This document shows, one piece after another, positions 9,282 through 17,114 of a stretch of 64,000 nucleotides of DNA. Position 1 is the first letter of the stretch, and each line of letters opens with the position of its first letter. The translations under genes and the position numbers were made by a program. The DNA is from Thermosipho sp. (in: thermotogales) (lineage in GTDB: Bacteria; Thermotogota; Thermotogae; Thermotogales; Fervidobacteriaceae). The DNA lies in assembly GCA_017656335.1 (NCBI GenBank), contig JACDOA010000004.1:43901-107900 (forward strand), in the 5' to 3' direction. The notes under the pieces were generated by a model that made no database searches, was not told the DNA's origin, and was given only the letters and a program-made list of their open reading frames with translations.

Positions 9282-14135
<4,854 letters not shown>

Positions 14136-14149
14136 CAAGGAGTGATGAT

Positions 14150-15106
14150 ATGAAGTTGTTTGGTAGAGAATTTGTTGAAGGGGCATTTATTGAAAAAAAA
14201 GACGGCTATGAAATCTTATGGAAGGTTATGAAGATTGACTTCGGTTGGAAAATTTATTGGAAAATAAAAGGATTCTTTTCTGGTTTGGAAATTCTAAAAA
14301 TTAATACAGGAACTTTTGAAATTTTTCCTTTTTTTGTTCTGTCTAAAGACATGTTAATTGGATTACTGAGCCCAACTTCAGAAAAAGTAGAGATTGTTAA
14401 AGAAAATAATGAAATTTCTTTTATTTTACGTTCAGAAGATGATTCAAATAACTGTTTAGAAAGTTCGTTGATAATCATTAACATTGAAAATAAAAAATTA
14501 TTACTTGAAAGATATAAAGAATGGATTATAAAAGAAAATAAAATAGACTCTGTTAAAGAAATCAGAATTTCAGCAGAAGATTACGAATTGTTTCTAAATA
14601 AAGATGAAATAAATACCAAACTTGAAAATAAAGTTATAATTATAAATGATTACATAGAAGAAATTGAAAAAAAATCAATAAATAAATTGAAAGAAAGAAA
14701 AAATAAAATTTTTGCCAAAACAAAAAATTATTTGGAAAGTTTGGAAGTTTTAGATGGATATATAATCGAAGGGACAATAGAAGAAAATTACATATTCCAT
14801 AATTTGAAATACTTACTATTACTTAATTGTGAAGATACTTTCGAATATTATTGGAAACACCTATTTAAAAATGTTGTATTTGAGAATGATCCTAATTTTG
14901 TCGAAAGAATTATAAATGTAAATGCTTTTGAAAAATTTTGGAAATTTGAATATATTAACAATAGCAAAGAAAGAATATTGCTGGAAATCAGTTGGAATGA
15001 AAAACAAATAAAAATGGAAAAAATTCCTTTTATAAACATTGAAAAGAATAGTGTTTTAAAAGATGATGGAAGAATTTTTAATTTTTATGGAGGCGAGACA
15101 AAATGA
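14150..15106 (+). CDS. GalA-like (GH36 alpha-galactosidase-related) protein apparently lacking the catalytic barrel
   Basis: N-terminus MKLFGREFVEGAFIEKKDGYEI..IDFGWKIYWKIKGFFSGLEILK, KKLLLERYKEWIIKENK and C-terminus DGRIFNFYGGETK resemble Thermotoga GalA as recalled. Only 318 aa; no GH36 catalytic motifs seen. Confidence 0.6.
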   Translation: MKLFGREFVEGAFIEKKDGYEILWKVMKIDFGWKIYWKIKGFFSGLEILKINTGTFEIFPFFVLSKDMLIGLLSPTSEKVEIVKENNEISFILRSEDDSNNCLESSLIIINIENKKLLLERYKEWIIKENKIDSVKEIRISAEDYELFLNKDEINTKLENKVIIINDYIEEIEKKSINKLKERKNKIFAKTKNYLESLEVLDGYIIEGTIEENYIFHNLKYLLLLNCEDTFEYYWKHLFKNVVFENDPNFVERIINVNAFEKFWKFEYINNSKERILLEISWNEKQIKMEKIPFINIEKNSVLKDDGRIFNFYGGETK

Positions 15107-16062
15107 TGGAGTTAAGATACAATCCATTAACTGACGAATGGGTCATTGTATCAGCTGCGACTCAGAAAAGGCCTGTTCAACCAGCCAAAACTCAATGTCC
15201 AATTTGTCCTGGAGGAATAGAATTTCCTGACACTACATATGATTTAGTTGCTTTTGAAAATAGATTTCCTTCGTTGATGAAGAATCCTCCAAAGATAGAA
15301 GGGAAAAATAATAGAATATTTAGAAAAAGAGAGTCTTTTGGTGTGTGTGAAGTAGTTGTTTATACTTCACAACATGATTCTTCGTTCCCTCAAATGCCTT
15401 TGAAACAAATAGAAAAACTGGTTGATATGTGGGTGGACAGAACATATGAGCTTTCAAAATATGATTTTGTAAAAAATGTTTTTATTTTTGAAAATAGAGG
15501 AAAAGAAGTAGGAGCATCTCTTCCACATCCACATGGGCAGATTTATGCTTTTCCCTTTATTCCTAAAAGAATTGAAGCGAAGATAAATTCGATGGAAAAG
15601 TGGTACGCTGAAAATGGAAAATGTGTCGTTTGCGATGTAATTGAAAATGAAACTAAAGAGAGAATTGTAAGAGAAACAGATTACTTCATAGCTTTTGTAC
15701 CATTTTACGCGCGATTCCCATTTGAAGTACATGTCTATCCAAAAAGACACTTATCTACTATGTTGGAATTTAGTTATGAAGAAAGAAAGGATTTCGCGAA
15801 AATTTTAAAGATAATAACGATGAAATATGATAAGTTATTTGATCAAGAGTTTCCATATATGATGATGTTTTTTCAAGCTCCTTTTAATACAAAAAATTAT
15901 TCTGAAATTTTTCATTTTCATGTCGAATTTAATCCACCTAAGAGAGATAAAGATAAAATCAAATGGATGGCAAGCGTTGAAACGGGGACATGGGCTTTTA
16001 TAAATCCTGTAATTCCAGAAGAAGCAGCAAGAATGCTCAGAGAAGTGGAGGTAGAAATATGA
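15103..16062 (+). CDS. galT: Galactose-1-phosphate uridylyltransferase
   Basis: CPICPGG, SLPHPHGQIYAFPF active site and FHFHVEF. Confidence 0.96.
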   Translation: MMELRYNPLTDEWVIVSAATQKRPVQPAKTQCPICPGGIEFPDTTYDLVAFENRFPSLMKNPPKIEGKNNRIFRKRESFGVCEVVVYTSQHDSSFPQMPLKQIEKLVDMWVDRTYELSKYDFVKNVFIFENRGKEVGASLPHPHGQIYAFPFIPKRIEAKINSMEKWYAENGKCVVCDVIENETKERIVRETDYFIAFVPFYARFPFEVHVYPKRHLSTMLEFSYEERKDFAKILKIITMKYDKLFDQEFPYMMMFFQAPFNTKNYSEIFHFHVEFNPPKRDKDKIKWMASVETGTWAFINPVIPEEAARMLREVEVEI

Positions 16063-17114
16063 AAGTAAAGACACCTGGAAGAATAAATATTATAGGAGAA
16101 CATACTGATTATAATGATGGATATGTTTTGCCTTTTGCTGTAAGTAAATTTGTAGAATTGAAATTGGAATATTCAGATAAATTTTTAATTTACTCAAAAA
16201 ACTTAAATGAAATAATTGAGATAAATGAAATTAAGAAAACAAATTCGTGGGCGGATTATATAATAGGTGTTATTTATGTGATGACAAAGAAAGGATACGA
16301 CATTCCACCTTTAAGGATAGATTTAGATTCGACTATTCCTATTGGAGCAGGTCTTTCGAGTTCAGCGGCTTTAGAAGTTGCTGCTTCATATGGTATATCT
16401 GAATTCTTGAATTTGAATATTCCTAAGATAGAAATAGTGAAAATTTCAAGAGAGGCAGAAGTAGATTTTGTCGGGGTCAGATGCGGAATAATGGATCAAT
16501 TTGCATCAACATTTGGTAAAAAGGATCATGCTATATTTTTAGATACTTTGACGTTGAAATATGAATATATTCCTTTGAAATTGAGGGAATATGAAATTTT
16601 CGTTATAGATTCTAATGTTAAACATGAATTATCATCGTCTGAATATAATAAACGAAGAGAAGAATGTGAAGCAGTATTAAAAACTCTACATAAAAAAAGT
16701 TTTAGGCAGGTTAGTTTTGACGATTTAAGAAAATTGGATGGTATTCTTTTAAAGAGAGCAAAGCACGTACTAGAAGAAAACGAACGTGTTTTGAAAGTAA
16801 AAAAATCATTGGAAATTAATGATTTTAAAATGGTGGGAAAATTACTTTATGAATCTCATCAAAGTTTACGAGATTTATATGAAGTTTCGTGTGAAGAAAC
16901 GGACTATATAGTAGATTATTTACGCGAAAATGAAGGTGTGTTAGGTGCTAGAATGGTTGGTGGTGGATTTGGAGGAGGTGTAATTGTTCTTGGAAATAGA
17001 GGAAGTTTAGAAAAAATAAAAGAAGATCTTAAAGAAAAATATTATGAAAAGTTTTCAAAAATTCCTGAATTTTACTCTTTAGAAACTTCTGACGGAGTGT
17101 CTATAATACTGTAA
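16059..17114 (+). CDS. galK: Galactokinase
   Basis: Start chosen at MKVKTPGRINIIGEHTDYNDG (ATGA overlap with galT); PIGAGLSSSAALEVA and GGGFGGGVIVL. Confidence 0.96.
   Translation: MKVKTPGRINIIGEHTDYNDGYVLPFAVSKFVELKLEYSDKFLIYSKNLNEIIEINEIKKTNSWADYIIGVIYVMTKKGYDIPPLRIDLDSTIPIGAGLSSSAALEVAASYGISEFLNLNIPKIEIVKISREAEVDFVGVRCGIMDQFASTFGKKDHAIFLDTLTLKYEYIPLKLREYEIFVIDSNVKHELSSSEYNKRREECEAVLKTLHKKSFRQVSFDDLRKLDGILLKRAKHVLEENERVLKVKKSLEINDFKMVGKLLYESHQSLRDLYEVSCEETDYIVDYLRENEGVLGARMVGGGFGGGVIVLGNRGSLEKIKEDLKEKYYEKFSKIPEFYSLETSDGVSIIL

Follow-up and report, generated by a model that had tools for sequence, protein, structure and literature searches.

A shrunken alpha-galactosidase next to galT in Thermosipho is probably kept as the carrier of a GalT hairpin

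In the 64,000-nucleotide stretch of Thermosipho sp. DNA analysed here (the window), the galA slot between lacZ and galT is occupied by a gene of only 318 codons, the frame of which is open throughout and the end of which overlaps the start of galT through the bases ATGA (Table 1). What keeps such a gene in the operon? A preliminary description made from the sequence alone considered the ORF to be similar to GalA at its N-terminus, middle and C-terminus and to have lost the GH36 barrel and catalytic motifs, and proposed that it is either a recently dying enzyme or a protein with a sugar-binding or scaffold role. As checks it named a structural comparison with Thermotoga maritima GalA and dN/dS measurements in relatives. 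The slot, the open frame and the overlap were all confirmed. The GGAGG within the 3’ end of the ORF is, from its sequence, likely to be the ribosome-binding site of galT, and galK probably starts at an ATG near 16059, downstream of the start of the mechanically called ORF.

Table 1. Coordinates in the window of the GalA remnant, its parts and the neighboring genes.
Feature	Position	Strand	Basis
lacZ (GH2 beta-galactosidase), 5’ neighbor of the GalA remnant	11121..14135	+	Pfam
Shrunken GalA-like gene, GalA remnant and proposed hairpin carrier, 318 aa	14150..15106	+	ORF, phmmer, alignment, relatives, Foldseek
Partial GalA N-terminal beta-sandwich, aa 1-111, NNWQSWGP active-site loop deleted	14150..14482	+	phmmer, alignment, pLDDT mostly 70-95
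Collapsed GH36 barrel remnant, aa 112-250, Lys/Glu-rich, low model confidence at aa 210 to 249	14483..14899	+	alignment, AlphaFold
C-terminal beta-hairpin INIEKNSVLKDDGRIFNFYGGETK, resembling the GalT N-terminal hairpin; core DGRIFNFY at 15065-15088	15032..15103	+	alignment, profile, AlphaFold
GGAGG, putative galT ribosome-binding site inside the carrier gene, near its 3’ terminus	15089..15093	+	sequence
galT, 319 aa, starts MMELRYNPLTDEW, without N-terminal hairpin	15103..16062	+	Pfam and GalT comparison
galK (mechanical ORF call, begins within galT)	15990..17114	+	

Residues 1-51 of the ORF match the GalA of T. maritima (TM1192, PDB 1ZY9) with a phmmer E-value of 9.5e-7, and weak matches, collinear with it, follow in the central part and at the C-terminal end. 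In the alignment, the middle block KKLLLERYKEWIIKENK lies against LLLEKYAELVGKEN of GalA, and the C-terminal DDGRIFNFY against EDGRNFYFY. A Pfam search with the ORF reached no family, GH36 included; two close relatives, 420 and 435 aa long, pass the Pfam GalA_N cut-off. The AlphaFold model, for which the alignment was 12 sequences deep, has a mean pLDDT of 71, rising to about 90 in residues 1-50, and when it was compared with the PDB by Foldseek, the top 8 matches were all T. maritima GalA (E 1e-11 to 3e-10). The N-terminal sequence match and the Foldseek matches show that the ORF is a GalA derivative, and its similarity to GalA at the N-terminus and over the chain places it in GH36 by descent. 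It does not have what an active GH36 enzyme has, namely a complete (beta/alpha)8 barrel with an Asp nucleophile and an Asp acid/base: aligned against 44 full-length GalAs, the shrunken set has lost or does not conserve the active-site loops NNWQSWGP, WTAPFS, GPDT and NDPDC, and the nucleophile segment is deleted in the ORF. The remnant thus shares with T. maritima GalA the operon slot, the N-terminal domain, the order of the elements and a C-terminal DGRxFxFY tail, but it is 318 aa long against about 552 aa, its barrel is collapsed, and most of the barrel and the catalytic motifs are gone. Descent and loss of the barrel were therefore correctly recognized in the preliminary description, and the structural comparison bears out the descent.

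A scan of the genome contigs with the single 318-aa protein as the query found no relatives. Shrunken homologues of 307-435 aa are nevertheless present, intact and directly 5’ of galT, in all of the 17 genomes concerned (6/6 of the Thermosipho type and 11/11 of the Pseudothermotoga type). All four genomes of the window’s genus have one (318, 323, 420 and 435 aa), two genomes of the sister genus have a 307-aa version, and the Pseudothermotoga-type family has a 344-385-aa version in the same slot in every one of its 11 genomes examined. Most other Thermotogota families have a full-length GalA (534-637 aa where complete) in the galT-adjacent slot. In three close pairs, the dN/dS values of the shrunken gene are 0.29, 0.18 and 0.27 (Nei-Gojobori) with zero gaps, which indicates purifying selection; galT and galK in the same pairs have values of 0.04-0.19. 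The shrunken protein is constrained, though less strongly than its neighbors, and neither the broken frame nor the relaxed or absent selection of a pseudogene is seen in it. In the GalA tree the remnants cluster on long branches, so that a single origin is possible, and long-branch attraction could also explain this grouping. The GalT tree groups most of the remnant-bearing lineages (support 99) and places those with the 420- and 435-aa forms elsewhere with low support.

Thirteen remnant-bearing genomes have a second, full-length GalA elsewhere. In the window’s own genome (G000), this GalA is on contig C2 (L178:9175-10785), has 536 aa from the first start codon, contains the catalytic motifs and lacks the hairpin tail; the gene stands alone amid unrelated genes. 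In four genomes of one family (f2; G020, G030, G036 and G040), no GH36 enzyme was found genome-wide, and yet the shrunken GalA still adjoins galT. In a relative without the GalT type of the window (G078, L208:4262-6040), GalA is split into two ORFs of 148 and 439 aa.

The strongest conservation in the remnants is in the C-terminal hairpin. Eight residues near the C-terminus, D-G-R-x-F-x-[FY]-Y, have a mean identity of 75% among the 17 remnants, compared with 23% for the rest of the protein; in full-length GalAs the same motif has 66% identity, compared with 47% for the rest. The codons of this tail differ synonymously among genomes, and the constraint on it therefore acts on the protein. The distal full-length GalAs of remnant-bearing genomes have the tail in none of 13 cases. 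In a survey of 104 Thermotogota genomes, the counts of which are not phylogenetically independent, the hairpin tail was found in 72 of the 73 genomes with the hairpin-less GalT type of the window, the remaining one being unreadable at a contig end, and in only 1 of the 31 genomes without it; where a genome has no GalA-like gene, the tail was sought only by a strict DNA pattern. Among the 72, the tail lies just 5’ of galT in 64, on a GalA away from galT in six and in a micro-ORF in two. The six belong to one family (f11) and show that adjacency of GalA to galT is not required for the tail to be retained; in this family, members with GalT have the tail, and two separate lineages that lack GalT also lack the tail. 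The tail-less GalAs occupy several separate positions in the GalA tree.

The one exception among the 31 is G056 (L224:11006-12829), the only genome with a tail-bearing GalA and no GalT of this type; it has possibly lost galT recently. On a contig titled Atribacteria (L046), a tail-bearing GalA-like ORF immediately precedes a galT whose product is 63% identical to the GalT of the window, and this pair represents a transfer or a binning error. Other DNA matches that resemble the tail in these genomes were rejected: among eight regions read back, three encoded the motif in an ORF, each time in the interior of an unrelated one, and five had no such ORF.

A counterpart of the tail is found at the other side of the gene boundary in other phyla. 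In the GalTs of Thermus, Meiothermus, Deinococcus, a cyanobacterium, a methanotroph, actinobacteria and alphaproteobacteria, the common start LRYxPLxxEW is preceded by an N-terminal extension that generally reads KRxxxKxDGRxLxLYG (core DGRxLxxY in Thermus and Deinococcus), and the GalT of the window begins at that common start (MMELRYNPL) without any extension. When a profile built from 63 distinct GalA tails was compared with a profile of the GalT extensions by hhalign, 18 columns were aligned with a probability of 91% and a score of 20.9 (the E-value of such a run refers to one comparison), whereas 100 column-shuffled controls scored at most 11.8. In either direction, simple HMM searches put the expected regions at the top, with E-values that are weak because the matched segment is short (about 18-20 residues). 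AlphaFold models Thermus GalT with a mean pLDDT of 93.9 and its extension as an ordered beta-hairpin (strands at residues 5-10 and 16-21, block pLDDT values of 86-95) that has DGR at the turn; the model of the 318-aa ORF has the same C-terminal strand, DGR turn and strand (295-303 and 309-317). The T. maritima GalA structures matched by Foldseek have 526-539 resolved residues, compared with about 552 in the native protein, and a tail that is disordered in GalA alone would fit this difference if the missing residues are the C-terminal ones. Thermus and Deinococcus also have overlapping genes in the order GH36-galT, an overlap already noted for Thermus (PMC5307791). The difference is that in these genera the gene boundary falls before the hairpin, which is on GalT, while in Thermotogota it falls after the hairpin, which the upstream gene encodes at its 3’ end or a micro-ORF supplies.

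The micro-ORF, below the usual gene-calling size, is found in two genomes of one family (f7). It is free-standing, overlaps galT and includes MRLIKVKVVKEDGRYVYYYEVEKG in one genome and MRLKKVKVIKKDGRFVYYYYEEEKG in the other (the two positions are L223:1176-1343 in G054; the reverse strand of L221, just upstream of galT, in G048). The hairpin segment therefore has three states, being part of GalT, part of a live or dead GalA, or a separate entity. The hairpin is absent from the GalTs of E. coli, human, Firmicutes and Petrotogaceae-type genomes, and no tail was found within 400 bases upstream of the Petrotogaceae-type galT or at the end of the ORF upstream of the Firmicutes galT. Because many GalTs have none, any need of the hairpin would be lineage-specific. 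Residues common to hairpin-bearing and not to hairpin-less GalTs (E40, F51, R54 and others) occupy 6 columns, compared with 6 and 8 in control contrasts, and are thus not in excess. The cis-type GalTs lie on both sides of the midpoint root of the GalT tree, which would fit the cis hairpin being the older state.

The most economical reading is that GalT has been split. We consider it quite probable that GalA acquired the N-terminal hairpin of GalT as a graft and that the dead GalA is kept as the carrier of this hairpin, which would bind GalT. In an operon with the order GH36-galT, a shift of the gene boundary would have turned the N-terminal hairpin of GalT into the C-terminus of GalA; GalT, now beginning at its common start, would need the hairpin from another protein, for its activity or its stability, and GalA would thereafter have two jobs. 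In the Thermosipho and Pseudothermotoga lineages, hydrolysis would be carried out by a second, tail-less GalA elsewhere or be absent, and the galT-adjacent GalA could lose its barrel and survive by presenting the hairpin to GalT. Co-synthesis and co-assembly of carrier and GalT would be favored by translational coupling at the ATGA overlap. For the Thermotogota at large, a split GalT that made GalA and GalT obligate partners, with decay of the first GalA to a carrier once a second was at hand and a micro-ORF as the carrier in one family, is in our judgment probably the correct account. Some observations do not sit easily with a split GalT: if a micro-ORF suffices in f7, it is puzzling that carriers elsewhere retain 300 residues, G056 has the tail but no GalT of this type, the match covers a short segment with weak single-profile HMM scores, and GalTs without any hairpin exist.

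The co-occurrence of tail and GalT would be equally compatible with a docking tag outside the GalT fold, by which GalA, active or dead, is tied to GalT in a sugar-processing complex, and the two enzymes do belong to one pathway. We think this unlikely, since in other phyla a segment similar to the tail forms the N-terminus of GalT itself and is predicted with confidence as a hairpin in cis, and since a lone micro-ORF has nothing to tether and a catalytically dead GalA nothing to channel. It is less likely still that the ORF is a leader cistron, there for translational coupling and for the ribosome-binding site of galT, with a protein product that has no function. The ATGA overlap, the GGAGG within the ORF and the poor conservation of most of the protein would suit such a cistron, but the dN/dS values, the gap-free alignments, the synonymous variation in the tail and the retention of the tail where GalA does not adjoin galT all speak against it.

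The sugar-binding role proposed earlier, in the form of a non-catalytic galactoside sensor or binding protein, is very improbable: the N-terminal beta-sandwich is partly kept, but the loops that contact the sugar are deleted, the N-domain varies widely (identity 0.23), and conservation is strongest in the C-terminal hairpin, which follows GalT, so that neither this role nor that of a scaffold is favored. That the remnant is a recently dying gene on its way to loss is hardly credible despite its long branches, lost catalytic residues and AT-rich low-complexity core, given 17 of 17 intact ORFs over two families and purifying selection. A frameshift fusion of GalA and GalT was also considered and rejected, as the junctions, inspected by eye, have no conserved slippery site.

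The split-GalT reading has relatives among known systems. As in split enzymes that arose by gene fission, a segment would be supplied in trans by another gene product; here, however, the segment is the tail of an unrelated neighboring enzyme that has since died and is kept as the carrier. As with pseudoenzymes kept as partner subunits, a dead homologue adjoins the gene of its partner, but the retained tail is not native to the family of the dead enzyme. Our literature search for a GalA-GalT link in Thermotoga, with subscription papers mostly outside its scope, found none, the Thermus gene overlap cited above being the only related remark.

If the split-GalT reading is true, the long retention of a dead enzyme is explained: selection holds a segment of another enzyme, grafted onto it by a shift of a gene boundary within the operon. 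Labels such as ‘truncated alpha-galactosidase’ or ‘hypothetical protein’ would then miss the role of such ORFs, and GalT from these organisms, expressed alone, may be incomplete. A GalA-GalT complex would also be predicted in Thermotoga, a well-studied organism for which GalA structures have been solved.
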